Shown: piece by piece, positions 3,959 to 55,928 of the stretch
Position numbering within the stretch: the first letter of the stretch is position 1
Layout: every line of letters starts with the position of its first letter
Source of the DNA: a virus
IMG/VR virus record: IMGVR_UViG_3300042453_004282
Span: 1 to 64,000 of that record
Strand: one strand, 5' to 3'
Length of the DNA stretch: 64,000 nt
The notes under the pieces: generated by a model
Databases searched by the model: none
Seen by the model: the letters and a program-made list of their open reading frames with translations, nothing else
What the model was told of the DNA's origin: nothing
Position numbers and translations under genes: made by a program

Positions 3959-4221
3959 AAAACTGGGACTCCGGACATCCGCCAGAAGGCGCGGTTAACC
4001 CCCCCACCCCCAATATATGTGGCACGGGGGAATCTTACCGTAGGTCACTGAGGCGCATGGAATTTTTTTTCCGGGGCGAAAAAGGGGCAGGATAGGAAAA
4101 AATCACGATGGAACTCTGAGGATGTTACTGGGCATACCGGGAGAAAAATTTTTTCCGGGGAAAAATCTCCCTATAGGGTCGTCACCTAAATAGTGAGAAC
4201 CCTTTTTTTTTTCTTAATACT
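3959..4221. other. Non-coding junction region, A/T runs
   Basis: No gene is seen here. It holds poly-C (4000-4010), several A or T runs (4051-4058, 4146-4152, 4201-4210), two short GC inverted repeats around TTTTTTCCGGGG, and a weak late-promoter-like CCTAAATAG (about 4186-4194) before the 849-aa gene. The base composition changes from the GC-rich block on the left to the phage-like region on the right across this stretch. Confidence 0.5.
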
Positions 4222-6804: not shown

Positions 6805-6836
6805 CGAGGGGATCTTTTATCTGAGGGGTGTTTGGT

Positions 6837-7895
6837 ATGGTGAAGGCAGTTGATATTGTGGTGGATTTGCAAGCCGGGGATACGGGAAAAGGAAAAGTCA
6901 CCCACCATCTCCTCAACACCGCGACGGAGCCGTATACCGCCGTCTGTCGTTTCAATGGAGGAGGAAATGCAGGACACACGATCTATCATCACGGAAAGAA
7001 ATATGTTACCCACCAAGTGCCATCAGGTATATTTTTTGGGGTTCCTTGTGTTCTTGGCCTTGGGTGTGTGGTAAATCCCCAAGCACTGGCGGATGAAGTT
7101 CGTGCGTTGCGGGAAGACGGCTTCACCGCTCCCGTGTATGTGGATCGACGTGCCCATGTAACCCGTGCCACCCACGTGGAGACCGACCGAAAGGATAGCG
7201 CGCATCTCGGGACAACGGGGCAAGGAGTCGGTCCCACGATGATGGACAAATACGGACGCACCGGGTTGCGTATGGAGCAGTGGGGGCTAGATGCCTCCGT
7301 GTTTCGCCAACTTGATATTTCCGTGATTGATACTTTTGAGATGTTTCACACGGAATTCACGCCACACACCGTGCTATGTGAAGGGGCACAAGGCTTTCAG
7401 TTGGATGTGGATTGGGGAGATTACCCCTATGTAACCAGTTCCCATTGCACCAGCGGGGCGGTCGCCCTCAACGGCTTTCCTCCGTCCCGATGGAGAAAGG
7501 TGTATGGCGTGATGAAGCCGTATGAAACCTATTCGGGATTCAAGTTGTTCAACGCCCGCGTGGATATGGAAACTACCTATGCCGCACTACAGACACTGGG
7601 GGGAGAAATCGGCGCGACGACGGGACGGCGGCGGCAAGTGCGCAGTTTGCATTTAGATGATGTCATTCGTGCCATTTATGTGAATGATGTAACCGATGTG
7701 ATCATCAACAAGATTGATATCATGGAGGCCGCACACACGGCTGGATATACGAAGGTATACCAGTACAAGCATAATTTCCTGTGGTGGGCCTATGAGACTC
7801 GACAGGATTTTGTGGATGCGGTGACGCGAACCCTTCGGTTGGAGTGTCCCTATCTGCGCACGATCACATGGTCAGATTCCCCCCATGCGGTATAG
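6837..7895 (+). CDS. purA: Adenylosuccinate synthetase family protein (PurA, possibly PurZ-like)
   Basis: PurA joins IMP and aspartate using GTP to make adenylosuccinate; PurZ does the same with dGMP in phages that carry diaminopurine DNA. Visible motifs are the P-loop GDTGKGK with the PurA-type Asp, NAGHT with the catalytic His, TTGQGVGP (PurA usually has TTGRGIGP), CEGAQG, YPYVTSS, GATTGRRR and the guanine-recognition motif NKID. The segment after GATTGRRR (QVRSLHLD) departs from bacterial PurA (RTGWLD). At 352 aa it is about 80 residues shorter than bacterial PurA, in the size range of archaeal PurA and phage PurZ. ATG 6837 is chosen because GAGGGG lies 8 nt upstream; GTG 6828 lies within that site. 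The gene overlaps the next by 11 nt. The family is certain; the substrate is open. Confidence 0.85.
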   Translation: MVKAVDIVVDLQAGDTGKGKVTHHLLNTATEPYTAVCRFNGGGNAGHTIYHHGKKYVTHQVPSGIFFGVPCVLGLGCVVNPQALADEVRALREDGFTAPVYVDRRAHVTRATHVETDRKDSAHLGTTGQGVGPTMMDKYGRTGLRMEQWGLDASVFRQLDISVIDTFEMFHTEFTPHTVLCEGAQGFQLDVDWGDYPYVTSSHCTSGAVALNGFPPSRWRKVYGVMKPYETYSGFKLFNARVDMETTYAALQTLGGEIGATTGRRRQVRSLHLDDVIRAIYVNDVTDVIINKIDIMEAAHTAGYTKVYQYKHNFLWWAYETRQDFVDAVTRTLRLECPYLRTITWSDSPHAV

Positions 7896-41540: not shown

Positions 41541-43718
41541 ATGTGTACTGAATGGTTTGCATATAATGCGCACCCAGCCGATCAAAACAGCATCCTCTAT
41601 ACGGACTGTTTTGATAATGTTGTGGTGGCATATGTCAATCCCATGGAGACGGCTACGATTTGTGCAAAATCGGGGCTCACCCCACAATGGAATTTTTCAC
41701 CATATTCTGGGTCTCAGCTATACGACACTTCCGTCAGTTGCACGGGTATCACGACAACAACTAGCACAGCAGCCCCAACCACGACAACCACGACAACGGC
41801 AGCGCCAACAGCCACATTCCGCTATAGCTTTGACACAGCAACGGCTGCATGGCCGGGTAACGGCGAGATGAATTTTGACTCGAACATCAGTTCGAGTATT
41901 ACATACACTCGCCTTGATTACCTAGATTACTATGGTAATGACATCAGTTCCTATTTGCGCACAATTCCATCAAGCGGCTCAATCACGGTACAGAGCGTAA
42001 GCAATCCTACTAACCTTGCTGCATTCAATATTACCGGGGCGTATTATGATGAACCTTCACAAACCGCCCTTGCTACGTTTATGTCGTATGTCAGTGGATT
42101 CACTGCCTTTTCAGACGGCGAGCTAGTCGATATCACATTACCAATTTCAGGGCCACCCCCGTCTACAACGACGACGACCACTGAAGCGCCGACGACAACG
42201 ACGACCACTGAAGCGCCGACTACAACAACGACTACAGGTGGACCTACAACAACGACGACGGCAGCCCCGTGCTATACCGCATCGTATATCTTGTTAGGCC
42301 CATACTCCACAATTGAAGAAGCGTGTTATCCCACCGTATTTCCTACAGTGAATTTATATGCAAGCGGAAGCTTGATTTTTGCCGATGCAAATTGCACCAC
42401 TGGGGCAGCGACTGGCTATTATTCTGGTGATGGGGACTACTATTTGGTAGAACCCGGTTCTCCATATCCATATAGTTTGATGGTTCCAACCCCGTGCGCA
42501 GCAACGACTACGACGACAACTACTGCCGCACCGACAACGACCACAACAACTACTGCTGCGCCGACAACGACCACAACAACTACTGCTGCGCCGACTACGA
42601 CCACAACAACTACTGCTGCGCCGACTACAACGACAACCACTGAAGCGCCGACTACGACGACAACTACCACTGCTGCGCCGACTACGACGACAACTACCAC
42701 TGCCGCTCCATCCGCATCTCTTCCGTTCGAAAACATTTCAATCGTGGCAGTAGTAAATCATAAAGGCCAATTGCTTGGTGGTTATTCTGCTATTCCGGGT
42801 CAATCCTATTCATTGAAGGTTATTTCTCAAGACGGAGACCCAAATGCCACACCACAAAATATCAATACACTAAGCGCGCTTCGTCCAGACACGATTGCTC
42901 CACATAGCCTTAGTGAATTTCGTGGTTACAATCATTATACATCTTCAGGAACAACGACCACAACGTCATCAACCACATCAACGACCACTACGGCAGCGCC
43001 TGTAGAGACCACAACCTCAACAACTTCAACCACATCAACGACCACTACGGCAGCGCCTGTAGAGACTACAACCTCTACTACATCAACGACCACTACGGCA
43101 GCGCCTGTAGAGACTACAACCTCTACTACATCAACGACATCGACCACAACAACGACATCTACGACTTCAACAACGTCAACGACCTCAACAACTACACTTG
43201 GTTGTGTTGAGGTGTACACCCTGTCAGGTCCATTCGGAACAAGCTCTGAAGCCTGTGCAGCATTTGATGCGGCTGATGTCACCCTATACTACTCCGGTGG
43301 AGCATATTGGACAAACAACACCTGTAGTAATGCCTTCACAGGAACCGGGTACTACTTGGTTGATGGAACCGATCCAAATGAAGTAGTAGAGTTTGTCAGT
43401 GGGTCGCTGATTAGCGGACCAACGGTATGTGGGTCCACGTCCACGACAACATCTACCACATCTACCAGCACCACGACCACGCTGACATGCGCATCAACGA
43501 ATTACTTGGGATCTAACGTCATTGCAGCGTATACCGGTGCTTGCAGCCAAACCTTGAACCTCCCGGTGTACAGCAGTTCGACTGGGTTGCAATTAGGTGA
43601 TTACATCTTCCAAGGCATTAACTGCACCTCTCCATATGACGGCGTCTTCACCGATAACTCAAATGTCATCACCGTCAGTGGCGGTCTGATCACAAATCTC
43701 ACTCCATGTGATGTATAA
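41541..43718 (+). CDS. Thr-rich modular adhesin A (725 aa)
   Basis: Globular domains joined by Thr-Pro-Ala-rich linkers (TTTTTTAAPTTTTTTEAP and TSTTSTTTTAAPVETT types), which look like mucin O-glycosylation regions. Order: N-terminal Cys-containing domain (1-72); linker; a beta domain starting TFRYSFDTATAAWPGNGEMN (nt about 41809-42151); linker; Cys module (nt 42270-42510); the longest linker (nt 42500-42708); a short domain with NHKGQLLGGYSAIPGQ; a Ser/Thr/Val linker (nt 42950-43195); Cys module CVEVYTLSGPFGTSSEAC (43201-43430); linker; Cys module (43477-43712). The same modules return in the proteins at 48655 and 54981. No signal peptide. It is likely a distal tail-fibre or head-fibre protein. 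The ATG follows a weak ribosome site. Confidence 0.75.
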   Translation: MCTEWFAYNAHPADQNSILYTDCFDNVVVAYVNPMETATICAKSGLTPQWNFSPYSGSQLYDTSVSCTGITTTTSTAAPTTTTTTTAAPTATFRYSFDTATAAWPGNGEMNFDSNISSSITYTRLDYLDYYGNDISSYLRTIPSSGSITVQSVSNPTNLAAFNITGAYYDEPSQTALATFMSYVSGFTAFSDGELVDITLPISGPPPSTTTTTTEAPTTTTTTEAPTTTTTTGGPTTTTTAAPCYTASYILLGPYSTIEEACYPTVFPTVNLYASGSLIFADANCTTGAATGYYSGDGDYYLVEPGSPYPYSLMVPTPCAATTTTTTTAAPTTTTTTTAAPTTTTTTTAAPTTTTTTTAAPTTTTTTEAPTTTTTTTAAPTTTTTTTAAPSASLPFENISIVAVVNHKGQLLGGYSAIPGQSYSLKVISQDGDPNATPQNINTLSALRPDTIAPHSLSEFRGYNHYTSSGTTTTTSSTTSTTTTAAPVETTTSTTSTTSTTTTAAPVETTTSTTSTTTTAAPVETTTSTTSTTSTTTTTSTTSTTSTTSTTTLGCVEVYTLSGPFGTSSEACAAFDAADVTLYYSGGAYWTNNTCSNAFTGTGYYLVDGTDPNEVVEFVSGSLISGPTVCGSTSTTTSTTSTSTTTTLTCASTNYLGSNVIAAYTGACSQTLNLPVYSSSTGLQLGDYIFQGINCTSPYDGVFTDNSNVITVSGGLITNLTPCDV

Positions 43719-43721
43719 ATA
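43714..43721 (+). promoter_or_regulatory. T4-type late promoter (TATAAATA) before the glycosyltransferase operon
   Basis: Perfect TATAAATA overlapping the adhesin stop, 60 nt before the first transferase ATG. It indicates that the transferase genes are expressed late, with the virion genes. Confidence 0.75.
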
Positions 43722-43781
43722 ACCTGTGGCTGATGGCATACGTTTGCCATAGATCATATCATACATTTTCGTGGAGTCATT

Positions 43782-44720
43782 ATGAGAACATTACGGTACG
43801 TATCGGCTCAACCTGCCATTGATTACTACACATGGCAGGTTGAAGTCATGATCAACAATTTCATCAAGAACGGCGTCAACCCGAATAACATCGACATCGT
43901 GTGCGCGATCAAAAACGGCGAAATTCCCGAAAAGTGGAAGAAGCTGGCCGCGCATTATAACTTCGTCCGATTCTTCTTTTACAACGACGAGCGCGTCAAC
44001 CCGATCTATATCTCGTCTGTTCGCCCCCACATCCTCAAGCAACATTTCGCCGCGCACCCAGAGTTAAAGAATGACGCGATCTTCTATCACGACTGTGACA
44101 TCATTCTAACGAAGCCGGTCTCATGGAATCATCTCCTCGACGATGATATGTGGTATTTGAGTGACACGCGCTTTTACATCGCCGCTTCGTATATCAAGAG
44201 CAAGAAATTTGGCGTCTATGAAGAGATGTGCAAGATCATCGGGATTGATGAAGCCATCCCAGAGGAAAACGAAATGCACAGCGGCGGCGCACAATATTTG
44301 ATGAAGAACATCGACGCCGCGTTCTGGGAAAAAGTGGAAGACGATTGTAACAAACTCTATCAGTTCTTCTTGGATCACCTCAAGGAACACCCGCAAACGT
44401 CAGAGTATCATCCCATTCAAAAGTGGACCGCCGACATGTGGGCCGTACTATGGAATGGATGGTATTTCAACCATACCGTGAAGGTCGTGCCGGAAATGGA
44501 ATTTGCGTGGCCTGTGCATGGTCTGGATATGTGGACCAAGTGCAATATTCTGCACAATGCTGGGGTACTAGACTCTGATGCGTCTCGTATGTTCTTCAAG
44601 GGGCATTACATCAACAAGCTGCCGTATGGCATGTCCACGGAGTCTTTTAACCAGTCGCTGTGCAGCTATAAATATGTGCAAGAGATCATGGAAACCGCTG
44701 CCAAGAGTTGCTTGACATGA
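43782..44720 (+). CDS. Putative GT-A-fold glycosyltransferase (312 aa)
   Basis: No named family is certain, but it has a Rossmann-like start (YYTWQVEVMINNFIKNGVN, IDIVCAIKNG) and, at about residue 105, DAIFYHDCDIILTKP, a D-x-D motif in the position expected of metal-dependent GT-A enzymes. The following MHSGGAQYLMKN segment and the HYINKLPYG end resemble nucleotide-sugar transferases found in phages and giant viruses. First gene of an operon of transferases behind a perfect late promoter and directly after a Thr-rich adhesin; a role in modifying virion proteins is inferred. The last codons overlap the next ATG (ATGA). Confidence 0.65.
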   Translation: MRTLRYVSAQPAIDYYTWQVEVMINNFIKNGVNPNNIDIVCAIKNGEIPEKWKKLAAHYNFVRFFFYNDERVNPIYISSVRPHILKQHFAAHPELKNDAIFYHDCDIILTKPVSWNHLLDDDMWYLSDTRFYIAASYIKSKKFGVYEEMCKIIGIDEAIPEENEMHSGGAQYLMKNIDAAFWEKVEDDCNKLYQFFLDHLKEHPQTSEYHPIQKWTADMWAVLWNGWYFNHTVKVVPEMEFAWPVHGLDMWTKCNILHNAGVLDSDASRMFFKGHYINKLPYGMSTESFNQSLCSYKYVQEIMETAAKSCLT

Positions 44721-45373
44721 AAATTTATGACTACATAGATGGAGCCTTGTACATCAATCTCAACTATCGCGTCGATAGAAAAGAGAGAGTGGAACAGCGG
44801 TGTGCTGAGTTGCAAATCCCCGTAGAGCGGTTCGACGCCATCCAGTTATCCTTGGCGACTATCGATAACCCGTATAACGACCCGGCATGGCACAAAAAAA
44901 TGGGATGCACGGAATCGCACTTCGCATGCATACGGCTTGCCCAATCGCGAGGATGGAAAAATGTATGGATCATGGAAGATGACGTAAAGTTCTCTCCATC
45001 CTTTGCTGAACAGGCGCCGCGAATTATTAATGAATTGCGTTCTTTGGAATGGGACATGTTTTTCTTTGGGGGTGAGCCAAACAGAAAAGTGATTCCCCAT
45101 TCAGATCTTTTGGTGAAAACGAATGGTGTGTATGGCGCACATTCCTACCTCGTCAATCACACCTTCTATGACAAGATCTTGTCTACCCCGACGACCAATA
45201 GATTACTGGACATCATTTACTTGAATTACAACGAACACGACAAGGTCTTTTACTTGAGCAAAGATTTGTTGTGTCTTCAAGACGGAGATTTCGAATCTGA
45301 TCTATGGGGTGGCAAGGTCAACCGAGATGATCTGTATGATAACGCTTACAACCTTTATGTGCGGGGTGTATAA
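44717..45373 (+). CDS. Glycosyltransferase family 25-like protein (218 aa)
   Basis: The GT25 (LPS/collagen-glycosyltransferase) pattern is plain: ALYINLNYRVDRKERVEQRC, ERFDAIQL, MGCTESHFACIRLAQSRGW and VWIMEDDVKFSP with the EDD metal site, then a late GAHSYLVN. Start 44717 gives an ATGA overlap with the upstream gene; an ATG 9 nt earlier is possible. GT25 members add hexoses to LPS cores in bacteria and to hydroxylysine in animal collagen. It is notable here because collagen-like and Thr-rich fibres are encoded near by. The stop overlaps the methyltransferase start (TAATG). Confidence 0.82.
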   Translation: MKIYDYIDGALYINLNYRVDRKERVEQRCAELQIPVERFDAIQLSLATIDNPYNDPAWHKKMGCTESHFACIRLAQSRGWKNVWIMEDDVKFSPSFAEQAPRIINELRSLEWDMFFFGGEPNRKVIPHSDLLVKTNGVYGAHSYLVNHTFYDKILSTPTTNRLLDIIYLNYNEHDKVFYLSKDLLCLQDGDFESDLWGGKVNRDDLYDNAYNLYVRGV

Positions 45374-45915
45374 TGGAGCACTTTTATCAAACGATTCCAA
45401 ACTGGTTTGACTATCACTCAGTCTATCGGGATGCAGTGGCAACTGCCCACCCCCACAGCTTGTTTGTCGAGATCGGCGTGTGGAAAGGTGGCAGCACAGC
45501 GTTCATGGGAGTGGAAATCGTGAACTCTGGGAAGCCGATTACTTTTCATGCAATTGACACCTTTTTAGGGTCAAAAGAACATGGCAATATAGAGAACTTC
45601 TACGAAGAAGCCAAACAGAATCTGTCTCCCCTGTTAGATCGCGGCGCTCTCACCTTGATTCAAGGACATTCCCATGAAGTAGTCCATCAGTATCCAGATG
45701 AAAGTATTGACTTCCTCTTTATTGATGGATCTCATGAGTATGAAGATGTTAAAAAGGATCTGCTACTCTGGCTCCCGAAGGTGAAGCACGGAGGAATTAT
45801 TGCAGGACATGATTATGACCCGGCATGGCTTGGTGTAGTCCAAGCCGTGAATGAAGTGATCGGTAAAGATCACATCAAAACCATCAATTCTGCCTTTGTG
45901 CATACTAAACCATGA
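45373..45915 (+). CDS. Class I SAM-dependent methyltransferase (Methyltransf_24 type, 180 aa)
   Basis: SAM motif LFVEIGVWKGGSTAFM (about residues 31-46), then FHAIDTFLGS, and IDFLFIDGSHEYEDVKKDLLLWLPKVKHGG, where the FIDGSHxYexVkxDl run is the Methyltransf_24 hallmark, with HDYDPAWLGV after it. Members of this family often methylate sugars in glycosylation clusters. It is sandwiched between two glycosyltransferases with overlapping stops and starts, which supports a sugar-methylation or glycan-capping role. No DNA-methylase motif (such as DPPY) is present. Confidence 0.8.
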   Translation: MEHFYQTIPNWFDYHSVYRDAVATAHPHSLFVEIGVWKGGSTAFMGVEIVNSGKPITFHAIDTFLGSKEHGNIENFYEEAKQNLSPLLDRGALTLIQGHSHEVVHQYPDESIDFLFIDGSHEYEDVKKDLLLWLPKVKHGGIIAGHDYDPAWLGVVQAVNEVIGKDHIKTINSAFVHTKP

Positions 45916-46709
45916 ATCTTGTAAGCTTTGTCTGCACCTCATATCGCCGGTTTACCTGTGTCGAACGAATCATCGCGCAGTTCAATGCGCAAACCTACCC
46001 GCACAAGGAATTAATCATCCTTAACACGGATATGGAGCACCCATTTTCTCTTGGCTTTGAGGACGCTAGAATTCGCGTGATCAATAACAACACGGATTAC
46101 CTGACGGGGCTTCCATATGCAAATCGTGGACAGATTTGCCGAGATGCGGTGACGCATGCGACTGGTGATTATTTCATGCTGGCCGATGACGATGACATCT
46201 ATCTCCCGTGGCACCTGCAACAGGCCGTGGACAAAATTCTCGAAGTACAAACCGATGCATGGAAGCCTGAGCGGAGTTTTTTTGCCACCCCACATAAACT
46301 GGAACTGACGATGAACACCTTGGAAGCCAGTGTCATTGTGAAGATGCCACGGATCCGAGAGATTGGTTTCCGGTCAGACTTGACCGGGTATGAAGGACTG
46401 AGTTGGTATACGAAGCTGCGGGATGAAAAGCAGCTTGATGAACACTATACCCACTATGTTCCGTCCTACTGCTTTAACTGGTCTGACCCCCATGAAATTG
46501 CAGGGCATAAGCAGAGCGGCAACATCAACAACCCAAACAATTTCGAAGAGCACAAGGTGGCTTCACAAGATTATGCCACGCGACCGCTGTCAAACACCTT
46601 TGATTTAGCGCAGCATGCAGTGTACGAGCGGTATTATGAGTATTTTCGCCAACACGCCGCAGCGTTTCCCTCTGATCTCATGGAGAAGTATGTTACCCCA
46701 TATCTCTAA
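45912..46709 (+). CDS. Glycosyltransferase family 2-like protein (265 aa)
   Basis: GT2 layout: VSFVCTSYRRFTCVERIIAQ at the N-terminus, PHKELIILNTDMEHP, CRDAVTHATGDYFMLADDDDIYLPWHL with the D-D-D-D metal motif (about residues 85-100), and a downstream acceptor region with GYEGLSWYTKLRDE. Soluble, without membrane segments, so it probably acts on soluble acceptors rather than on lipid-linked ones. ATGA overlap with the methyltransferase; overlaps the following gene by 20 nt. Third member of the late transferase operon. Confidence 0.82.
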   Translation: MNLVSFVCTSYRRFTCVERIIAQFNAQTYPHKELIILNTDMEHPFSLGFEDARIRVINNNTDYLTGLPYANRGQICRDAVTHATGDYFMLADDDDIYLPWHLQQAVDKILEVQTDAWKPERSFFATPHKLELTMNTLEASVIVKMPRIREIGFRSDLTGYEGLSWYTKLRDEKQLDEHYTHYVPSYCFNWSDPHEIAGHKQSGNINNPNNFEEHKVASQDYATRPLSNTFDLAQHAVYERYYEYFRQHAAAFPSDLMEKYVTPYL

Positions 46710-47346
46710 ACAAATACAGCAAGCGGTTCACAGTTCTTCTGTCCCGGTATTGTGCCTTGTGGTGTCGGAGGGATGCGAGCATGTCGCTCCGTTGGTCCAG
46801 ACGCAACTAGAGGAAGAATTGGCGGAAAAGAAGTATAACATCACCTATGTGCAATTCTGTGTGGCAGAAGACGAGATGCCATTTCCTCGTCTGGTCACCC
46901 CTGCGCTGTATTTTTTCCTCCCTCACAACCCAGACCCCGTATTTTATCGAACACTCATGTTCCAGCCAACCCTCCATGAAGACATCATGACAACCTTCAA
47001 GATGATGCAAGGGTTGACTTTGGATGAGGCGCGATTTTCAAAAGAGCAGATGGAAGATATTCATCGGGTAGATGCCTTTCTCGAAAAGGAAAAGGCTATA
47101 TTAGCCTCGTACCCGTCATCATTTCAAACCGCACGAAATTTGGCAGCCGAAGTATGGAAAAATGGAAAGCGCATCGCCCGTGGCCTTCCCTTGCTCGTTG
47201 ACACCCAAACCGGGTTTCATCGGCTGTCTACCTGCGAATCCTGTGACCGGTATGATATGGAGAAAAGCCGGTGTCAGGAATGTGGTTGTTTCATGAAGAC
47301 CAAAACGCAACTCGTCGCGTCAACCTGCCCCTTAAATAAGTGGTAG
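46690..47346 (+). CDS. Thioredoxin-fold plus zinc-ribbon protein 1 (218 aa)
   Basis: N-terminal part (to about residue 100) looks like a thioredoxin fold: strand VPVLCLVVSEGC, helix, strand NITYVQFCVAED, and FPRLVTPALYFFLP with the cis-Pro-like TP. Only one Cys (SEGC) sits at the active-site position, so there is no CxxC. The middle is helical. The C-terminus is a zinc-ribbon-like C-x2-C...C-x2-C-x-C pattern (CESCDRYDMEKSRCQECGCF) and ends CPLNKW. The start at 46690 replaces a longer frame running back into the upstream gene. The next gene is a clear paralogue, 4 nt away. Confidence 0.72.
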   Translation: MLPHISKQIQQAVHSSSVPVLCLVVSEGCEHVAPLVQTQLEEELAEKKYNITYVQFCVAEDEMPFPRLVTPALYFFLPHNPDPVFYRTLMFQPTLHEDIMTTFKMMQGLTLDEARFSKEQMEDIHRVDAFLEKEKAILASYPSSFQTARNLAAEVWKNGKRIARGLPLLVDTQTGFHRLSTCESCDRYDMEKSRCQECGCFMKTKTQLVASTCPLNKW

Positions 47347-47350
47347 CAAC

Positions 47351-48013
47351 ATGCGTCACATAGAACACGAGTCGTTCAAGGCAATCATCGATGCGGCTGA
47401 GACGCCAGTATTACTACTGGTTGTGTCAGAAAACTGCGAAGAAAACACCCCGGTGATGCAATATCACCTAGAAAACATGATGGCGAAGCATCCGAAAGAA
47501 CGAGCGGTATTACACTCCCTGTGTATCCCAGAGGTGGACATGCCGTTTCCTCGGCCAGCTACCCCAACCCTGTATTACTTTCTTCCAAAGAACCATACTC
47601 CGGTATTTTGGCGACATAATACCTTTTTGAGCAAGCTAGAGCAGGATTTGCAAGTTGTGTATAAGATGATGAAGGACAAAACGACATATCGCGAGGCAAA
47701 CCTTACTCCGGCAGAGTACGAAAAGTTCAAGACAATCGAAAAGTTTCTCGAAGACGAAAAGGCGGTACTCAGTTCCTACCCCGTGGATTTCCAAGAGTCT
47801 CGAAAGCTGGCGCGAGAAACATGGGAGCAAGCCAAACGCTCAGATCGAAAGTTGCCAATTCTTTCAACTATCCGCGTGGGGTATCGTCGATACGCTGAAT
47901 GTCAAAAATGTGAAAAATACGATAAATCAGTCCACCGCTGCGGGGAATGTCTCTGTTTCATGCGAATTCGCACTCATCTAGAAGCTGAAAAGTGCCCCTT
48001 GGGGAAGTGGTAG
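47351..48013 (+). CDS. Thioredoxin-fold plus zinc-ribbon protein 2 (220 aa), paralogue of the preceding gene
   Basis: Same layout and length as its neighbour: PVLLLVVSENC with a single active-site Cys, MPFPRPATPTLYYFLPKNHTP with the cis-Pro-like TP, a helical middle that shares FLEDEKAVLSSYP, and the end CQKCEKYDKSVHRCGECLCF, then CPLGKW. The C-terminal ribbon ending in CPLGKW is also known from short proteins in T4-like aquatic phages. The pair results from a tandem duplication. A monothiol thioredoxin fold with a ribbon could be a chaperone or redox sensor; the role is not known. The late promoter TATAAATA follows its stop. Confidence 0.72.
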   Translation: MRHIEHESFKAIIDAAETPVLLLVVSENCEENTPVMQYHLENMMAKHPKERAVLHSLCIPEVDMPFPRPATPTLYYFLPKNHTPVFWRHNTFLSKLEQDLQVVYKMMKDKTTYREANLTPAEYEKFKTIEKFLEDEKAVLSSYPVDFQESRKLARETWEQAKRSDRKLPILSTIRVGYRRYAECQKCEKYDKSVHRCGECLCFMRIRTHLEAEKCPLGKW

Positions 48014-48017
48014 TTTG

Positions 48018-48025
48018 TATAAATA
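48018..48025 (+). promoter_or_regulatory. T4-type late promoter (TATAAATA)
   Basis: Perfect TATAAATA, 25 nt before the ATG at 48051. Confidence 0.75.
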
Positions 48026-48050
48026 ATTGGGTCTAATCAATCCCCAATTT

Positions 48051-48386
48051 ATGCCAACCACGAAGAATATCGTAATAGATCAGGGGTCTACCTTTGATTT
48101 AGATGTGCTCATTGTAGATGCCAACAGAAACCCCGTAAACTTGACGGGTTACTCCTTTCGAGCATCTATGCGAAAGACATATTTTTCATCCACGGCAACA
48201 AATTTCACCATAACCCCGGCGGAAGACCTGACGACAGGTCTCTTCAATCTGGCTCTTACCGCAGAGCAGACCAGCGCCATCAAGGCGGGTCGATATGTCT
48301 ATGATATTGAGATCGAAGACGAAGACGGCGTAGTAACCAGAGTATTTGATGGTATTGCTACCGTTACACCAGAGGTAACCCGATAA
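48051..48386 (+). CDS. Ig/BppU-like virion protein (111 aa)
   Basis: Small beta-sandwich-like protein: IVIDQGSTFDLDVLIVDANRNPVNLTGYSFRASMRKTY, then FNLALTAEQTSAI and AGRYVYDIEIEDEDG. The pattern 'QG.TF......D....NLTGY..R...R' is typical of an N-terminal Ig-like domain of baseplate or fibre accessory proteins. The start at 48051 follows the late promoter; no strong ribosome site is seen. It overlaps the next gene (TAATG). Confidence 0.7.
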   Translation: MPTTKNIVIDQGSTFDLDVLIVDANRNPVNLTGYSFRASMRKTYFSSTATNFTITPAEDLTTGLFNLALTAEQTSAIKAGRYVYDIEIEDEDGVVTRVFDGIATVTPEVTR

Positions 48387-48601
48387 TGGCACTCATCGTA
48401 CAACAATCCGGTCAAAAAAAGATAAATACTTCCATCCGAAAGATTGATTATGAACTGATCAATTTGGAGGAGTTGAAGAATGTCGATGAAAATGTCAATG
48501 GGCTTCAGGACGGGTATACGGTTGTGTATGATGCCGCCAACCGGCGCTGGATTACCCGTAGCATCGACGGGTTGCAAGAAATCGACGGCGGATTCTATTA
48601 A
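48386..48601 (+). CDS. Small virion-associated protein (71 aa)
   Basis: Hydrophilic protein of a type that accompanies Ig-like and fibre genes in T4-like aquatic phages: LINLEELKNVDENVNGLQDGYTVVYD, then RRWITRS and the end EIDGGFY. The LQDGY.V.YD...W pattern resembles short fibre-linker modules. No enzymatic motif. Coupled to the preceding gene by a TAATG overlap. A GATAAATA (48421-48428) inside it is probably fortuitous. Confidence 0.65.
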   Translation: MALIVQQSGQKKINTSIRKIDYELINLEELKNVDENVNGLQDGYTVVYDAANRRWITRSIDGLQEIDGGFY

Positions 48602-48613
48602 GATCGCAAGTTG

Positions 48614-48621
48614 TATAAATA
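48614..48621 (+). promoter_or_regulatory. T4-type late promoter (TATAAATA)
   Basis: Perfect TATAAATA, 33 nt before adhesin B (ATG 48655). Confidence 0.75.
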
Positions 48622-48654
48622 ATTTTCAATATACCAACTTTCAGCTAGATACCT

Positions 48655-51600
48655 ATGCCAGCTACCTTCCGATATAGCTTCGATACCGCAACTGCTGCGT
48701 GGCCGGGTAACGGAGAGATGAATTTTGACTCGAACGTCAGTTCGAGTATTGCGTATGCGCGTCTGGATTATTTCGATTATTTTGGAAATGACATTCGCAC
48801 TTATCTACGCACGATTCCATCATCCGGCACAATCACCGTACAGAGCGTAAACACCCCGGCGAATATTGCTACCTTCAATATTACCGGGGCGTATTATGAC
48901 GAACCATCACAGACGGCACTCGCTCCGTTTATCTCATATGTAAGCGGGTTTACGGCCTTCTCAGATGGAGAACTAGTCGATATTACGCTGCCGATTGACG
49001 GACCAGCCACAACAACGACTACAACCACTACCGCAGCACCAACAACGACCACTACCACAGAAGCTCCGACGACTACAACAACGTCAACCAGTAGCACGAC
49101 GACCACCACCACGACCGCATCACCAGTTCTTTTTGAGGTAGATGCGTCAGATAATGCCTCGTATTCTGGCTCAGGCTCTACTTGGTTTGATATCTCTGGG
49201 GCAGACCGAGATCTTACCCTCGCGGGAACATTTTCTCACGAAATCAACGGCGGTTTCGGCCAGTTCGATCTGAATTCATCGGCCACGGCAACGTCCCCGC
49301 AGATGAATCTCTCTGGGTCTACGTCATTCACCATTTCTTCTTGGGTAAATCTAGAATCTACAAAATCTGGCGATAGAAACCTGATCAAAATTTTGGGTGC
49401 TAATGATAAGGTAGAGATAAGAGCATTTGTTCCGGACTCTTCATTCAATTCTCGCGTATACTACAGATTCAACTCAGTAGGACAAGGATATGAATCACAG
49501 AGCAGTGTAGTATCTAATGTGTATAATGAACAATGGGCACATGTAGTTTTGGTCTACAATCAATTCCCATCTGGTGTCTACACACAGGGCGCTGTTAAAG
49601 TTTATGTAAATGGAGTTTTGCTACACGATGCATCTGGGTTTCTACTTGATAAAGTTTCAATTACTGATGGATTCTTAAATGCCGGACCTAGAACAGATAT
49701 TTCAGTAATTTTCTCCGGTGCTGAATTTATCACCCGCGCTAAGATGACAAATACGTTGTTGTCTGATGCTGATGTCACTGCGTTGTACAATGCTGAAGTT
49801 GGAGACATGCCAACCATTAGTACAACCACGACCACTACGGCAGCACCAACAACGACAACAACAACCGCAGCACCAACAACAACCACGACCACCACAACTA
49901 GCAGCACAACTACGACAACAACCGCAGCACCAACAACCACAACCACACAATCACCGGGAGCAAGCATGGCAACAACAATTCAGATTAAGCGTTCCTCTGG
50001 CGTCTCAGCACCTTCAACCGGTATTCTTGCAGAAGGCGAGCTTGCCTACTCACAAGACCGCTCGAACGAAGGCGCTGGTGCGATTCTGTACATCGAATCC
50101 GTAGCGGCAGACGGCACCACCGCAGTCGTAGACAAAGTCGGTGGTAAGTACTACACGAATACCGTAGACACCTTCTTGGCGCCGAAGACCGCGTCAGTAG
50201 CGGCGGCTTTGGTACTTCACGAAGCTGGCAACAACGGCTCAAACAAGGTTTCTTTGAAGGCTCCAGCGGCGTTGGCGGCTGATATCAGCTACACGCTTCC
50301 GGCCACCATCACGGAAAACTACTTCCTGAAGACCGACGCTTCAGGTAACATGTCATGGGCTGAAGTTGTATCAAGCCTTTCAATCAGCGGCGACACTGGC
50401 TCAGACAGCATCAACACTGGCGAAACCCTTGACTTCGCTGGCACTGCGAACCAGATCGCGACAGCAGTAACCGACAACACCGTAACCTTCGCGTTGACGG
50501 ATGACGTAGTCCTCGTAGGCGACTTGACTGTCGGCGGCAACGACATCAAGATGAACGGCGGCACCACAGCGTTGACCTTCTCAGGTTCAGGTGACGTAGC
50601 CGTCGCGGGCGACCTGAAGGTTGGCGGAAACGACATCCTCGCGTCAGATGGCACCACAGCCCTTACAATGGCTGGAGCCGATGTAACTGTCGCGGGCGAC
50701 TTGCAGGTTTCAGGTAACGATGTGAAGATGGCGGGTGGAGTAACAGCCTTGACCTTCTCAGGTTCAGGTGACGTAGCGGCTGCTGGCGACCTCAAGGTTG
50801 GTGGCAACGACATCCTCGCGTCAGACAACACGGTAGCGATCACCCTCTCAGGCGCTGACGTAGCGGTTGCGGGCGACCTTAAGGTCGGTGGAAACGACAT
50901 CAAGGCGTCAGACAACACCGTAGCCATTACATTGGCTGGTGCCGATGTAACGGTTGCTGGCGACCTTCAGGTCTCAGGCAACGATGTCAAGATGGCTGGT
51001 GGCACTACGGCCTTGACCTTCTCAGGTTCAGGGGACGTAGCCGTCGCGGGTGACTTGACGGTAACAGGCAATGACATCAAGTCTTCATCAGCTACAGCGA
51101 TCACCCTCTCAGGCGCTGACGTAGCGGTTGCTGGCGACCTGAAGGTTGGCGGAAACGACATCAAGGCGTCAGATGACACCGTAGCGATCACCCTCTCAGG
51201 CGCTGACGTAGCGGTTGCGGGCGACCTGAAGGTTGGCGGCAACGACATCAAGGCGTCAGACGGCACCACCGCCATCTCACTCTCAGGCGCTGACGTAACC
51301 ATCGCGGGTAACTTGACGATCAACGGAACAACCACCACGGTCAACTCCGTAACCGTAACGGTTGACGACAACTTGATCAAGTTGGCCGACAACAACACCG
51401 CCAACTCACTCGACACGGGTGTATTTGCGAAGTATGTCGAAAGCTCAACGGACAAGTTCGCGGGTCTCTTCCGCGATGCGTCAGACAGCAACAAGTTCAA
51501 GCTCTTCGTTGGACTTGAAGTTGAGCCGACGACCACAGTTGCGACAGGTGATGCCTCATATGTTCGCGGTACACTTGAAGCCAACCTCTCAGGTGGTACG

Positions 51601-51795
51601 ATCTCCAACCTCGCGTCAGACCTCGCGGTTGCTGACGGTGGTACAGGCGCCAGCACCTTCACCGCAAACGGTGTACTGTACGGTAACGGCACCGACCCGA
51701 TTCAGGTAACTGCGGCGGGAACCAGCGGTCAGGTACTTCAGGTCAACGGCTCTGGCGTACCGGTCTTCGCCCACTTGGACGGCGGCACGTACTAA
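48655..51795 (+). CDS. Modular adhesin B: Thr-rich linkers, LamG domain and beta-repeat fibre (1,046 aa)
   Basis: Order: residues 2-118, a close copy of the TFRYSFDTATAAWPGNGEMN domain of adhesin A; Thr-rich linker (about 119-156); LamG/concanavalin-type domain (about 158-388, TWFDISGADRDLTLAG, FTISSWVNL, VYVNGVLLHDAS) likely to bind sugar; a second Thr-rich linker to about 434; a fibre domain starting MATTIQIKRSSGVSAPSTG with GELAYSQ; about nine 28-29-residue repeats (GDLKVGGNDIKASD...ITLSGADVAVA); then a tail with KLADNN, GGTGASTFTANGVLYGNGTD. From nt 49970 the codon choice changes sharply (TCA, GTA, GCG favoured). Most likely a receptor-binding fibre. A hairpin follows the stop. Confidence 0.8.
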   Translation: MPATFRYSFDTATAAWPGNGEMNFDSNVSSSIAYARLDYFDYFGNDIRTYLRTIPSSGTITVQSVNTPANIATFNITGAYYDEPSQTALAPFISYVSGFTAFSDGELVDITLPIDGPATTTTTTTTAAPTTTTTTEAPTTTTTSTSSTTTTTTTASPVLFEVDASDNASYSGSGSTWFDISGADRDLTLAGTFSHEINGGFGQFDLNSSATATSPQMNLSGSTSFTISSWVNLESTKSGDRNLIKILGANDKVEIRAFVPDSSFNSRVYYRFNSVGQGYESQSSVVSNVYNEQWAHVVLVYNQFPSGVYTQGAVKVYVNGVLLHDASGFLLDKVSITDGFLNAGPRTDISVIFSGAEFITRAKMTNTLLSDADVTALYNAEVGDMPTISTTTTTTAAPTTTTTTAAPTTTTTTTTSSTTTTTTAAPTTTTTQSPGASMATTIQIKRSSGVSAPSTGILAEGELAYSQDRSNEGAGAILYIESVAADGTTAVVDKVGGKYYTNTVDTFLAPKTASVAAALVLHEAGNNGSNKVSLKAPAALAADISYTLPATITENYFLKTDASGNMSWAEVVSSLSISGDTGSDSINTGETLDFAGTANQIATAVTDNTVTFALTDDVVLVGDLTVGGNDIKMNGGTTALTFSGSGDVAVAGDLKVGGNDILASDGTTALTMAGADVTVAGDLQVSGNDVKMAGGVTALTFSGSGDVAAAGDLKVGGNDILASDNTVAITLSGADVAVAGDLKVGGNDIKASDNTVAITLAGADVTVAGDLQVSGNDVKMAGGTTALTFSGSGDVAVAGDLTVTGNDIKSSSATAITLSGADVAVAGDLKVGGNDIKASDDTVAITLSGADVAVAGDLKVGGNDIKASDGTTAISLSGADVTIAGNLTINGTTTTVNSVTVTVDDNLIKLADNNTANSLDTGVFAKYVESSTDKFAGLFRDASDSNKFKLFVGLEVEPTTTVATGDASYVRGTLEANLSGGTISNLASDLAVADGGTGASTFTANGVLYGNGTDPIQVTAAGTSGQVLQVNGSGVPVFAHLDGGTY
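50519..51330 (+). repeat. Tandem repeats inside adhesin B (about 84-87-bp units)
   Basis: Nine to ten units beginning GGCGAC(C/T)T and encoding GD-L-x-V-x-G-N-D-(I/V), separated by Ala/Thr/Ser-rich turns. Units 2, 4, 5, 8 and 9 are nearly identical in DNA; units 3 and 6 (GDLQVSGNDVKMAGG) form a second subtype, so block duplication is likely. The protein product would be an elongated beta-helix or beta-solenoid shaft. Confidence 0.85.
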
Positions 51796-51805
51796 TCAAA
51801 CGCAC

Positions 51806-51840
51806 GGTGGGGAGTGGAGAAACATGTCTCCCTCCCCACC
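51806..51840 (+). terminator. Hairpin after adhesin B, probable terminator
   Basis: Stem GGTGGGGAGTGGAGA / TCTCCCTCCCCACC with one bulged base and loop AACATG, 10 nt after the stop. Followed only by AGTTT, so the T tract is weak. A promoter begins 4 nt later. Confidence 0.6.
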
Positions 51841-51843
51841 AGT

Positions 51844-51872
51844 TTGACAAGATTGAATACATGAGATATCTT
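51844..51872 (+). promoter_or_regulatory. sigma70-type promoter before the 85-aa gene
   Basis: TTGACA (51844-51849), 17-bp spacer, TATCTT (51867-51872), 31 nt before the ATG at 51903. It suggests that this small gene is expressed apart from the late adhesin message. Confidence 0.6.
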
Positions 51873-51902
51873 TAGTATTCACCTTTCACCTGACATCATA
51901 TC

Positions 51903-52160
51903 ATGGACCAGCAACAGTTTATCAATGAGTACATCAACACGCTCGCCAACAACTACAAGCAAGCTTGCATCGACAAGGTCATGCTTGGTACACAGGTTAC
52001 CGTACTGAATCGACAGCTTGAAGAACTGAAGGCGTCAGTGAATGCGCTGGAAACGAAGTTGAAGCAAGAGGCAGAAGCCGCGAAGCTCCCACAAGTAACC
52101 CAGCAGCCAACCGCAGGAATCTCAGTTAAGCCACCAGTTATTGTTGGCGAAGACTACTAA
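51903..52160 (+). CDS. Small coiled-coil protein (85 aa)
   Basis: Helical N-terminal part (FINEYINTLANNYKQACIDK) followed by a heptad-like coiled coil (LNRQLEELKASVNALETKLK) and a Pro/Val-rich tail (VTQQPTAGISVKPPVIVGED). No known family is evident; similar small coiled-coil proteins accompany structural genes in T4-like phages. It has its own sigma70-like promoter and a strong terminator, so it forms a single-gene unit between two adhesin or transferase blocks. Possible roles are fibre assembly chaperone or a regulator; neither has direct support. Confidence 0.7.
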   Translation: MDQQQFINEYINTLANNYKQACIDKVMLGTQVTVLNRQLEELKASVNALETKLKQEAEAAKLPQVTQQPTAGISVKPPVIVGEDY

Positions 52161-52161
52161 G

Positions 52162-52191
52162 AAAAAGGGCACCGAATCCGGTGCCCTTTTT
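52162..52191. terminator. Bidirectional terminator
   Basis: Stem AAAAAGGGCACCG / CGGTGCCCTTTTT with loop AATC, followed by TT on the plus strand and A-rich on the other side. It separates the 85-aa gene (plus) from the triple glycosyltransferase (minus), which ends at 52197. Confidence 0.93.
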
Positions 52192-52196
52192 TTATT

Positions 52197-54860
52197 TCAT
52201 AGTGTCAAGGTGTGTGTGGTTTTGTGACCACATTGCACGTGAGGATCGACCATCACTCGGAACCCATGTATCTTTGCCGTGTTACAGAAGTCCACATCTT
52301 CTGACACGGTATAGGCGTGGTCAATCGCGGAATGATATCTAAAGTGTGGATATTTCAGGATTTCAAACACCTTTCGTTTCACCAAGACGCAACCAAATCC
52401 ACACGCATCAACCTCAAACGGCTGCTGTGCTGTGATGATCTCATCGCGAGTCAAGTTTCTCATAGAGAGATCGGCATGAATATGTGGGCGGGTTCGAACA
52501 TATAGCTCAGGCTTCTTTTCTTCAGTGCGTTGCACATACACGCCACTCACAATATCGCTGTCAACGCGCAGCAAACTCTGAAGAGCATGTGCCGGAAGCA
52601 CCATGTCGCTATCAACTGAGAAGAGATAGTCATACTGCTTGGTCAGCACCCAGTGTGCTATCAGATTTCGGATTTGATCAATCTGATATCCGTAGAAGTA
52701 CTGAAAGTCCACCTGTACCCCATCTGGAATCTGTAAGTCATAGATGCTTTTGAAGGTGTCCACTTCAATGTATTTCGCAGTGGGGATTGCTAACAGAATG
52801 CGCTTAGGGGGCGAACCGGTGCGTTGAGACAGGACGAGGTTCGCCGTAGCAGTCTGCTCTGTCGCATGCACTTTATAGTCATTGATCGGATTGACATCAT
52901 TGTACCGATACCATACATCCTTCACGACATGAATTTTCTCTGGGTCTGCGCGTTCAATGGTTTCGTAGAAAATAATGGTGTCTCCCCCGGCACGAGCCCA
53001 CTTTCCATCAATCTGAAAGGTCTCAACTGGGATAGATTCAAAGAGACTTTTCTTGAATGTACGTAGGTGCGTGTATGGCATGTTCCACGGGAACAGATGC
53101 TTTCGATAGGAGCGCGTCTGTTTTACTTCAGGGGGATATTCCTGTGCAATCAATGGAATCTGGTCAGCCTCTGACCACATAGAGCCATAGGTCAGTTCTG
53201 CACCCTGTACATAAATGGCATTGAGCTTTGACAGGATTTGATTGTCAGGCATCAAGGCATCATCCCCATCTAGCATGACAATTACATTGGACGAGTTAAT
53301 CGACGCATCTTGCATGACCTTCACATAGTTGTAGACCGACCCCATGTTGTCTTGCCGATGTAGCAAAACAAACCTGTGACGAATATCACTTGGCAGTTCT
53401 GCAATCGTCTTCTGTGCAACTTCATAACTGGAGTCAGTTGAAGCGTCATCAACCAAGATGTGCGAATAGAATGGATAATCTTGTGCCGCAACCGATTGAA
53501 TGCACTGCGCAATATAGGACGCTGCATTATAGAACGGAGAGATGATTGCAAAGGTCTGCTCTGCGGGTAACTGTGGAAAATACCGATCCTCTGGATTTGT
53601 GAAACGACGACCAAATACTTGACCAACGCGATAGTTGATGTGAGAGACAGCGCGGAATTCTTCCGCAGAAAGATATGCATTCCGCACTTGGCAGAAATGC
53701 TGCTTCCATTGCAGCGCAACCGACGACCAATCAGCCACATCATGTACACGACTACACGTATGTGCTTTTTGACTGTATAGATAGGTGTCACGTGCTGCGG
53801 CTAGTACCATATCAACGAACTGCTGCGTCTGACGATGGGCGTCGATATGAGGAAAGAGTGAATTCGAAACAATCGGATAGTCGATCTTGTAACATGCGTC
53901 ATCAATCGCAGTCTCTTCAAGAGCGCCAAACCGATTCGTCAACACTGGAGTATTGTACGCCAAGGACTCCAGCGTAGAGATACCAAAGGTCTCTGGGAAC
54001 GCCGCAGGATAGATAGTGAATTTTGCCTTGGCGAGAATATCTGCCACTTGCCACTGTGGAATTACGCCAGTGAAAGTGACGCCCAGATTCTTCAAATCTG
54101 ACCGGGTGCTGAGTTCTCTCCACTGAATCTCTTGGGCGTCTGGCGGGGCCGTGCCATTACGGTAATACCCTCCAATCACCATCAGCTTTGCCAACGGAAG
54201 GGAGCCCTTCACTTTAGGCCAAATGTCATTTACCAAGGGCAATAATCCTTTGGTCACCGACGCATTATATACATACAGATTTGGATCTTTTTTCGAAATG
54301 TCAACAAAATCATGATAACGACGGATTCCATTCCTTGTCACGAAAATGTGTTTTTTGAGCACCTCGAAGTTTCTCCGAGGACCATGAGTGCAGGTAGTCA
54401 CATAACTCGTGTGGAAATCCGACAAGGTGAAGATCTTGTCAATTTTTTTCTCCACCACAAATTGTTCCAAAAGATCATCCCCTTGACAAAAGGTGTCGTG
54501 CATCCACAACACCTTATATGCAGCAGCATCTCGCATTTTGCGAATTGCAGCAGGGAGCCCGTACTGTTCCACATTATCAGCAAATGGAAAGACTGACCGG
54601 CTAGAAATCAATACATCATATGCGTCCGGAGAATGCAGGGACAGCCACTTCAAATCGCGGTAGATCACACCCGATTCTGCCACCTGTTCATAGGTAGAGG
54701 TATCAGCGCTGTTAGAATTGTACAGCGTCACGCGCATACCCAGCTTTTGAAGCTCCTGTGCCATGAAAATGGCGGCAGACTCCGAACCACCGAGTCCCTG
54801 TGTCCGAACTGTCGATTCTGTGTATGGCAGTCCTATGGTGTCCAAAATGGCAATTTGCAT
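52197..54860 (-). CDS. Three-domain glycosyltransferase (GT4 + GT2 + GT-A-like, 887 aa)
   Basis: Domain 1 (about 1-395): GT-B fold, GT4 type, with QGLGGSESAAIFMAQEL near the N-terminus, LWMHDTF, VTRNGI, and FPETFGISTLESLAYNTPVL containing the E-x7-E donor-site pattern (E290, E298). Domain 2 (about 436-660): GT2, with FAIISPFYNAASYIAQCIQS, HILVDDASTDSS and VIVMLDGDD. Domain 3 (about 687-887): GT-A-like, RILLAIPTAKYIEVDTFKS, QIDQIRNLI, YLFSVDSDMVLP with D-x-D (750-752) and SEDVDFC. No membrane segment, so it is cytosolic. It could assemble an oligosaccharide in steps on one polypeptide. It stands alone on the minus strand within the adhesin region; its own promoter is not obvious. Confidence 0.85.
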   Translation of the reverse strand: MQIAILDTIGLPYTESTVRTQGLGGSESAAIFMAQELQKLGMRVTLYNSNSADTSTYEQVAESGVIYRDLKWLSLHSPDAYDVLISSRSVFPFADNVEQYGLPAAIRKMRDAAAYKVLWMHDTFCQGDDLLEQFVVEKKIDKIFTLSDFHTSYVTTCTHGPRRNFEVLKKHIFVTRNGIRRYHDFVDISKKDPNLYVYNASVTKGLLPLVNDIWPKVKGSLPLAKLMVIGGYYRNGTAPPDAQEIQWRELSTRSDLKNLGVTFTGVIPQWQVADILAKAKFTIYPAAFPETFGISTLESLAYNTPVLTNRFGALEETAIDDACYKIDYPIVSNSLFPHIDAHRQTQQFVDMVLAAARDTYLYSQKAHTCSRVHDVADWSSVALQWKQHFCQVRNAYLSAEEFRAVSHINYRVGQVFGRRFTNPEDRYFPQLPAEQTFAIISPFYNAASYIAQCIQSVAAQDYPFYSHILVDDASTDSSYEVAQKTIAELPSDIRHRFVLLHRQDNMGSVYNYVKVMQDASINSSNVIVMLDGDDALMPDNQILSKLNAIYVQGAELTYGSMWSEADQIPLIAQEYPPEVKQTRSYRKHLFPWNMPYTHLRTFKKSLFESIPVETFQIDGKWARAGGDTIIFYETIERADPEKIHVVKDVWYRYNDVNPINDYKVHATEQTATANLVLSQRTGSPPKRILLAIPTAKYIEVDTFKSIYDLQIPDGVQVDFQYFYGYQIDQIRNLIAHWVLTKQYDYLFSVDSDMVLPAHALQSLLRVDSDIVSGVYVQRTEEKKPELYVRTRPHIHADLSMRNLTRDEIITAQQPFEVDACGFGCVLVKRKVFEILKYPHFRYHSAIDHAYTVSEDVDFCNTAKIHGFRVMVDPHVQCGHKTTHTLTL

Positions 54861-54909: not shown

Positions 54910-54980
54910 TAGCATGGACACTGTCGTCTGTCAACCCAGCCGTTATATCATGAAATCTTTCCCTATATATGAGGATGCCC

Positions 54981-55916
54981 ATGGCAAGCATAAATGTGAT
55001 GAGAATAAAGAGATCTGACACCCCCGGTAAAATCCCTTTGGTTGCAGACTTGCAGCTTGGCGAACTTGCGGTAAATACCCATGAGGGACGAGCGTTTACG
55101 GTAAAGGAAATCAACGGCGTAAAGACTGTCGTAGACCTCGGTATGCCGGTTGAATATGCAACCGTTTCATCTTCTTCCATAGGCAGCGCCGTTAATTTTG
55201 ATGTAAAGTCTAACGCTACGCTATATTACTCGTCAGCCGCACAAAACACATGGACCTTGAATGTGCGCGGCTCCTCTGCGGTTTCGTTGAATGACTTTTT
55301 ATCAACAAATCAACAAATTGAGATCAGTCTCTTCACGAGAAATGGAACTACGGCGTATGGTATTACGCAATTCTTCATCGACGGGGTAGAATATTTTCCT
55401 CTGTGGGAAAATACCGATACACCTACACCAAATTCAAACTCAATTGATTGTTATATGTTCAAGATTATCAAGACTGCGGCCTCGCAATTTTTGGTGTTTG
55501 CGAAATTCTCTACACACGGGTCAAACGTCACAACCACAACGACGACCTCTACGACCTCTACGACCTCTACGACAACGACGGCTGCGCCAACCACTACCAC
55601 GACTTCTACGACGACCACAGAAGCGCCAGCAACCACCACGACCACAACAGCCGCTCCAACAACGACCACCACAGTTTCGTGTGTGTACATGTATACACTG
55701 ACTGGTCCGTTCTCTACCGCATATGAAGCGTGTGTGGCCTCTGCTGCGGCAGATGTGACGCTCTATCTCGGCAGCGGTTCCCTGTATTACACTGATAGCC
55801 AATGCACCACCTTGTTCACTGGTAATGGCTATTATCTCATCGACGGAACTTCACCGAAACAGTATATCCAGTTCAACTACGGAACTGTTTCATCTGGTCC
55901 GTCTACCTGTGCTTAA
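54981..55916 (+). CDS. Thr-rich modular fibre protein C (311 aa)
   Basis: N-terminal fibre module MRIKRSDTPGKIPLVADLQL, GELAVNTHEG, TVKEINGVKTVVDLG, a common start of fibre subunits in aquatic T4-like phages and repeated in the next gene. Then a beta domain (WTLNVRGSSAVSLNDFL, FTRNGTTAYGITQFFIDG), related to the last domain of the next protein. A Thr-rich linker (nt 55529-55675) leads to the Cys module CVYMYTLTGPFSTAYEACVA...STC, the same as in adhesin A. ATG 54981 is preferred over 54969 because GAGG lies 7-10 nt upstream of it. Confidence 0.75.
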   Translation: MASINVMRIKRSDTPGKIPLVADLQLGELAVNTHEGRAFTVKEINGVKTVVDLGMPVEYATVSSSSIGSAVNFDVKSNATLYYSSAAQNTWTLNVRGSSAVSLNDFLSTNQQIEISLFTRNGTTAYGITQFFIDGVEYFPLWENTDTPTPNSNSIDCYMFKIIKTAASQFLVFAKFSTHGSNVTTTTTTSTTSTTSTTTTAAPTTTTTSTTTTEAPATTTTTTAAPTTTTTVSCVYMYTLTGPFSTAYEACVASAAADVTLYLGSGSLYYTDSQCTTLFTGNGYYLIDGTSPKQYIQFNYGTVSSGPSTCA

Positions 55917-55928
55917 TTGAGGTTATAC

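Follow-up and report, generated by a model that had tools for sequence, protein, structure and literature searches.

The analysed window comprises 64,000 nucleotides of a 64,227-base IMG/VR virus record. By family matches it encodes T4-type baseplate, tail-sheath-stabiliser and adaptor proteins, and perfect copies of the T4-type late promoter TATAAATA were found 11 times in the whole window against 0.67 expected, exclusively on the plus strand; because of these proteins and promoters we assign the phage to the T4-like myoviruses. Its fibre region contains four late open reading frames with Thr-rich linkers, a cassette of glycosyltransferase and methyltransferase genes and a protein with three glycosyltransferase domains encoded on the opposite strand (Table 1). 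A sequence-only reading of this DNA had described the linkers in these four frames, and they were seen again on re-examination, as were all the open reading frame positions it had given. The Thr runs of the window draw on all four Thr codons (ACG 62, ACA 62, ACC 49 and ACT 38), thus selection acts on the protein and not on the DNA, and a DNA microsatellite was ruled out as the source of the runs. The G+C content of window positions 1-4000 is 67-69%, that of the remainder about 47-50%, and a tRNA-Arg lies inside the G+C-rich part (413-505, minus strand); this part could be flanking DNA of host or chimeric origin, or the junction of an integration event.

Table 1. Features of the fibre region in the window and apparently recoded poly-Thr extensions in cultured phages.
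Feature	Position	Strand	Basis
Adhesin A, the likely main acceptor; modular fibre protein rich in Thr(6-8)-(Ala/Glu)-(Ala)-Pro linkers	41541-43718	+	ORF/translation
TATAAATA, T4-type late promoter of the cassette	43714-43721	+	motif count, position
phrog_4417 glycosyltransferase, GT-A fold, DxD (D104, D106); proposed initiating poly-Thr O-glycosyltransferase	43782-44720	+	profile, predicted fold
GT25-family glycosyltransferase; putative extension	44708-45373	+	PF01755, E 4.1e-11
Methyltransf_24/TylF-like O-methyltransferase; putative capping	45373-45915	+	PF13578, E 7.7e-23; PF05711, 3.6e-6
GT2-family glycosyltransferase; putative extension	45912-46709	+	profile, E 2.7e-6
Two tandem paralogues, each with a Cys-rich (DUF6171-like) module at the C-terminus	46615-48013	+	recurrence in relatives' cassettes
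Fibre C, likely acceptor; Thr-rich linkers plus a LamG-like stretch	48655-51795	+	ORF/translation
Triple glycosyltransferase: GT4-type, GT2 and phrog_1574 GT-A	52197-54860	-	profile matches
Adhesin B, Thr-rich linkers; likely acceptor	54969-55916	+	ORF/translation
Fibre D, likely acceptor; N-terminus rich in Thr, collagen-like repeats	55917-60449	+	ORF/translation
Poly-Thr extensions of capsid/tail proteins, reached only via frameshift (CCCAAAA -1; CCC_TAA +1) or stop read-through	L183 3740-4001; L194 2740-3007; L187 3660-3935; L188 3745-3930; L189 2950-3007

The late cassette and its first enzyme

The promoter copy at 43714-43721 overlaps the final codons of adhesin A, the gene directly 5' of the phrog_4417 glycosyltransferase, and is placed 60 bases 5' of the latter. 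This promoter and the location between fibre genes indicate that the glycosyltransferases of the cassette are expressed with the virion genes. A single late operon behind a perfect promoter had been proposed, which stands for the cassette but not for the triple glycosyltransferase, given its minus-strand gene. Neighbouring cassette genes share a few bases at their junctions (44708/44720, 45373/45373 and 45912/45915). The GT25 protein scores 43.6 bits with PF01755, above the cut-off of 24, the Methyltransf_24 protein is weakly similar to mycobacteriophage O-methyltransferases, and copies of the GT2 gene at 60-81% identity hold the same position in several relatives. The six glycosyltransferase domains and the one Methyltransf_24 enzyme with overlapping frames reported previously were all matched by profiles or predicted fold, and the reported lack of membrane segments in these proteins agrees with a top 19-residue Kyte-Doolittle mean of 1.12. 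The tandem paralogues that follow share a C-terminal CxxC...CxxCxC...CP.GKW-like module; their predicted fold is a weak model (pLDDT 66), in which the N-terminal half may be thioredoxin-like.

The first protein of the cassette matched the phrog_4417 profile with an E value of 7e-68 (residues 5-305 on 2-291 of 293) and no Pfam glycosyltransferase family at E 0.01; across 25 members of phrog_4417, Pfam glycosyltransferase profiles gave sub-threshold, chance-level matches only. Both Asp residues of the DxD motif are invariant in 25 sequences of the family. The model of the enzyme (pLDDT 94.5) adopts a GT-A fold, and structure comparison returned glycogenin (3rmw, Z 15.3), LgtC and the Skp1 glycan glycosyltransferase Gat1 (both Z 14.2) and UGGT (Z 14.0). 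The resemblance of phrog_4417 to GT8/GT24-like GT-A enzymes concerns the predicted fold (Z 14-15 across some 220-240 residues) and the DxD motif; the protein differs from them in sequence (6-13% identity) and in having no Pfam glycosyltransferase family match. The GT-A fold by itself is uninformative on the acceptor. A kinship with plant Hyp/Ser arabinosyl- or galactosyltransferases, guessed from motifs, was rejected with no Pfam support and no solved-structure match by sequence. The mucin-type polypeptide GalNAc-transferases of family GT27 share the broad GT2 Pfam profile, and our check for this type found only GT25, GT2 and GT4-type profile matches in the cassette and the triple glycosyltransferase, so that a distant relation to GT27 is possible.

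Association of phrog_4417 with Thr runs

Relatives of phrog_4417 were collected at 36 loci, and 34 of these were scored by a fixed criterion for a Thr/Ser-rich upstream gene; in this and the other sets of loci, genes were called by open reading frame length, and the IMG/VR records are partial. The gene directly 5' of phrog_4417 was Thr/Ser-rich in 27 of the 34 loci, compared with 33 of 489 other genes of the same loci (Fisher 2.5e-22), and in 18 of 24 groups once near-duplicates were collapsed. In most relatives the Thr-linker gene ends about 10-40 bases before the phrog_4417 start. Four exceptions are real, as the gene 5' of phrog_4417 has no Thr run (L049, L050, L051 and L052); in the remaining ones the upstream sequence is cut short (L057), the linker gene is located farther 5' (L030) or one gene intervenes (L031). 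For a baseplate-wedge marker meant as neutral background no relatives were found, and therefore the background for Thr runs was drawn from other genes of the same loci, records with the triple glycosyltransferase and tail-less capsids.

The reverse search started from 80 viral stretches selected solely by a DNA pattern for TTTTTAAPTTTTT. The commonest family directly 3' of the Thr-linker gene was again phrog_4417 (12 of 50 scanned neighbours), its profile matched 12 of 124 neighbours against 5 of 695 other genes (p 3e-7), and it was present in 17 of the 33 pattern-selected records above 30 kb. The co-occurrence of Thr-rich genes and the first cassette enzyme in related genomes, anticipated by the sequence-only reading, is thus a strong association. 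Most contigs with the pattern had no phrog_4417 in the stretch covered. The GlcNAc-transferase family PF11397 (CAZy GT60), which includes the Skp1 peptide GlcNAc-transferase, was identified in 3 of 16 of the T-linker records above 30 kb that lack phrog_4417, and directly 3' of the Thr-linker gene in two loci (L068 and L077), a position it shares with phrog_4417. It is a different family, absent from the window, that may fill the same slot. Counting both families, a candidate peptide glycosyltransferase is encoded in about three in five T-linker records, and in the other records above 30 kb neither of the two was identified. Because of the four real exceptions and the many pattern contigs without phrog_4417, a proportion of the Thr linkers may carry no sugar or be served by another enzyme.

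The genes behind phrog_4417 vary in aquatic phages and match profiles of GT2, Gly_transf_sug (PF04488), GT6, GT7C, GT11 and GT34 glycosyltransferases and of FkbM or Methyltransf_24 methyltransferases; this reads as an unchanging starter enzyme combined with exchangeable enzymes for extension and capping. In addition, a phrog_4417 glycosyltransferase 3' of a Thr-linker gene shares its open reading frame with a radical SAM/SPASM domain (L101, 297-2309). Among the scanned neighbours of Thr-linker genes there was one match to a 2OG-Fe(II) oxygenase-type family. By eye, a 2OG-Fe(II) oxygenase-like gene lies directly 3' of the Thr-linker gene in L076 (6398-6865), whose product could hydroxylate Pro or Thr, and a sulfotransferase-like gene holds this position in L121 (10456-10965), a possible other route of linker decoration.

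Homologues of phrog_4417 at 24-38% identity were found in 74 phage records, with hosts that are nearly all Bacillota. Its usual location is within the head and tail gene region, where the preceding gene, or a capsid or tail gene nearby, ends in poly-Thr. For instance, the capsid protein of Lactobacillus phage iLp84 ends in ...PTTTTTTTSK and its tail protein in ...ETTTTTTTSK, the major structural protein near the homologue in Lactococcus phage 1706 ends in ...TTTTTTTTTTHHD, and poly-Thr is found next to the homologue in the phiFL1A tail protein and in R3.3. Near the homologue, LpeD orf68 contains 43% Thr, SAC12B has the Thr run TTVKPTTVAPTT, and gp050 and gp051 of LP65 carry TETQTQTQ, the latter being annotated as a structural protein detected by 2-D gel and MS; Chryseobacterium phage MA9V-3 combines the homologue with internal Thr linkers. 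Taken together, the pairing of tag and glycosyltransferase ranges over phages of Lactobacillus, Enterococcus, Staphylococcus, Lactococcus, Arcanobacterium and Chryseobacterium as well as aquatic T4-like phages. The likely acceptors are therefore not confined to fibres; in cultured phages they would be the C-terminal ends of the major capsid and major tail proteins. The homologue is solitary among the head and tail genes of small Gram-positive phages and is therefore expected to be the enzyme in direct contact with the protein, and as the runs occur on unrelated proteins (capsid, tail tube and fibres), Thr is the feature in common.

To compare closely related phages, the iLp84 capsid without its tail was used as the query, yielding 60 loci, of which 57 had enough downstream sequence to be scored. 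The poly-Thr tail of the capsid and the glycosyltransferase were both present in 29 loci and both missing in 28, with no mixed locus, and in most scored loci the capsids are 94-100% identical. Capsids without the glycosyltransferase end in LIPKP, those with it in LVPGKTTTTTTSHG, LVPTTTTTTTSK and similar sequences, and the distance from capsid tail to glycosyltransferase is 57 to about 570 bases. For the major tail protein, encoded about 2 kb beyond, tail and glycosyltransferase were found together in 25 loci and neither in 17; one locus (L241) has poly-Thr in the tail protein and no glycosyltransferase in its 40 kb record, and three further loci have the glycosyltransferase without scored poly-Thr in the major tail protein, two being cut by contig ends and one reading TTTTSTS. 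With the phiFL1A tail protein as the query, three loci had the glycosyltransferase and Thr runs in both genes and seven had neither. The capsid tail and the glycosyltransferase may travel as one piece in Lactobacillus phages. The glycosyltransferase state changed only about three times independently on the capsid tree, therefore these locus counts are not independent, and the evidence gains its weight from the same pattern being seen in capsid, tail and fibre genes that are unrelated to each other.

These data bear on the explanation that the Thr linkers are no more than flexible or recombination-prone spacers, that the target of the glycosyltransferase lies elsewhere in the fibre, for example in folded domains, and that their adjacency results from modular shuffling of cassettes. 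The linkers of the window do connect shuffled domains, and in L050 and L051/L052 the glycosyltransferase follows a structural-looking gene despite the lack of Thr runs. Nevertheless, near-identical capsids differ at their end by a Thr tail in step with the glycosyltransferase, and such tails are carried by proteins as unrelated as capsid, tail tube and fibres, hence we consider this explanation improbable.

In several phages the poly-Thr extension can be reached only by a change of frame or read-through. The capsid gene of Planchet and nattely stops and poly-Thr goes on in the -1 frame, and the frame overlap of Planchet contains the classical slippery sequence CCCAAAA. The tail protein of RQ1 and TPWB06 terminates at CCC TAA, beyond which a long frame encoding poly-Thr runs on in +1, and in bIL285 a Thr run lies in frame 3' of the capsid stop. 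This arrangement suggests that a fraction of the capsid or tail subunits would be tagged by recoding.

Proposed function and alternative acceptors

The location of phrog_4417 behind Thr-tagged capsid, tail and fibre genes in many unrelated phages argues that it very probably sugar-coats virions at those Thr residues. For the window we propose with good confidence that the late cassette O-glycosylates Thr runs on the phage's own virion proteins, that the GT25, GT2 and Methyltransf_24 enzymes extend or cap the glycan and that the triple glycosyltransferase is outside this system. The phrog_4417 glycosyltransferase would transfer the first sugar to Thr in the linkers of adhesin A and the three other fibre proteins. 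Further sugars would be added by the GT25 and GT2 enzymes, and the glycan or its end would be methylated by the Methyltransf_24 enzyme; the sugars may stiffen and shield the linkers between adhesin modules. The order of extension before capping, the donor sugar, the linkage to Thr and the benefit for the phage are what we infer.

The original proposal that phage enzymes glycosylate Thr-rich virion proteins is thus supported for phrog_4417 and the cassette behind it, but had to be narrowed, since the triple glycosyltransferase does not co-occur with Thr runs as had been supposed. We collected 24 loci with its relatives and searched the 13 longer records for phrog_4417. The 7-Thr pattern was absent from the whole records (0 of 24), no Thr linkers were found in the flanks of the 24 loci, and phrog_4417 was absent from the 13 longer records (0 of 13). 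The protein was therefore ruled out as a member of the Thr-glycosylation system and probably serves a separate function. It fits better with the alternative that the glycosyltransferases and the methyltransferase alter a host surface glycan (O-antigen or capsule) against superinfection and are merely located in the fibre module. GT25 and GT2 families are frequent in the synthesis of surface polysaccharides, and O-antigen conversion by phages is known. However, the cassette includes no membrane parts and is preceded by a late promoter, and phrog_4417 is found on its own next to capsid and tail genes, whose poly-Thr tails it tracks; for the cassette we therefore regard a host-surface acceptor as unlikely.

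A third potential acceptor is the phage DNA, which the glycosyltransferases would decorate at hypermodified bases. Phage glycosyltransferases that glucosylate DNA are known, and the window contains a phrog_1211 adenylosuccinate-synthetase-like (PurZ-type) gene (6828-7895), through which the phage DNA may contain 2-aminoadenine. Late expression and the association with poly-Thr argue against such a role, as does the lack of a base-hydroxymethylase partner beside the glycosyltransferases, and we give it hardly any weight compared with glycosylation of Thr runs.

Relation to known systems and wider distribution

Virion glycosylation by phage enzymes is a known kind of mechanism. In mycobacteriophages Che8, Corndog and Myrna, phage-encoded glycosyltransferases glycosylate capsid and tail-tube proteins at their C-termini (Freeman et al. 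2023, as cited in PMC12363180 and PMC12619734). Next to its head genes, Corndog encodes an O-methyltransferase, two glycosyltransferases and an N-acetylglucosaminyltransferase (PMC4351075), and this gene order closely resembles that at window positions 43782-46709. In contrast to the mycobacteriophage system, the one proposed here has poly-Thr as the acceptor and phrog_4417 as the starter, and would involve fibres in addition to capsid and tail. The capsid and tail proteins of Che8 have no poly-Thr end, hence this phage was dropped as a positive control, and the phrog_4417 profile found no match in Che8, though it matches more than half of the long pattern-selected records. In the open papers covered, which makes for a weak absence, nothing relevant was found on poly-Thr tags or phrog_4417 glycosyltransferases in phages. 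As far as we checked, novelty lies in the enzyme family and the acceptor tag, in how widely this tag occurs and in the apparent recoding.

If the proposal is right, it assigns a function to the phrog_4417 family, which is uncharacterised but present in many cultured phages, and implies that phages infecting food and gut bacteria have capsids, tail tubes and fibres coated with sugar. Such glycan coats would influence phage adsorption, stability and immune recognition, and immune effects of virion glycosylation have been reported for mycobacteriophages. The near-identical Lactobacillus phages with and without the glycosyltransferase and tail provide simple test material. Moreover, the combination of a short poly-Thr tag and a dedicated soluble enzyme might provide a tool to decorate proteins in bacteria.

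In a broader sense, we find it reasonably likely that the poly-Thr tag and the phrog_4417 glycosyltransferase form a unit across very different lineages and hosts, that a programmed frameshift sets the number of tagged subunits in some of them, and that relatives in Sphingobacteriia may glycosylate ribosomal peptides. These cellular relatives (L267-L298) have in many cases a longer C-terminal part, and a small GG-leader peptide gene lies within about 6 kb of the cellular phrog_4417 gene in about 14 of 34 loci.
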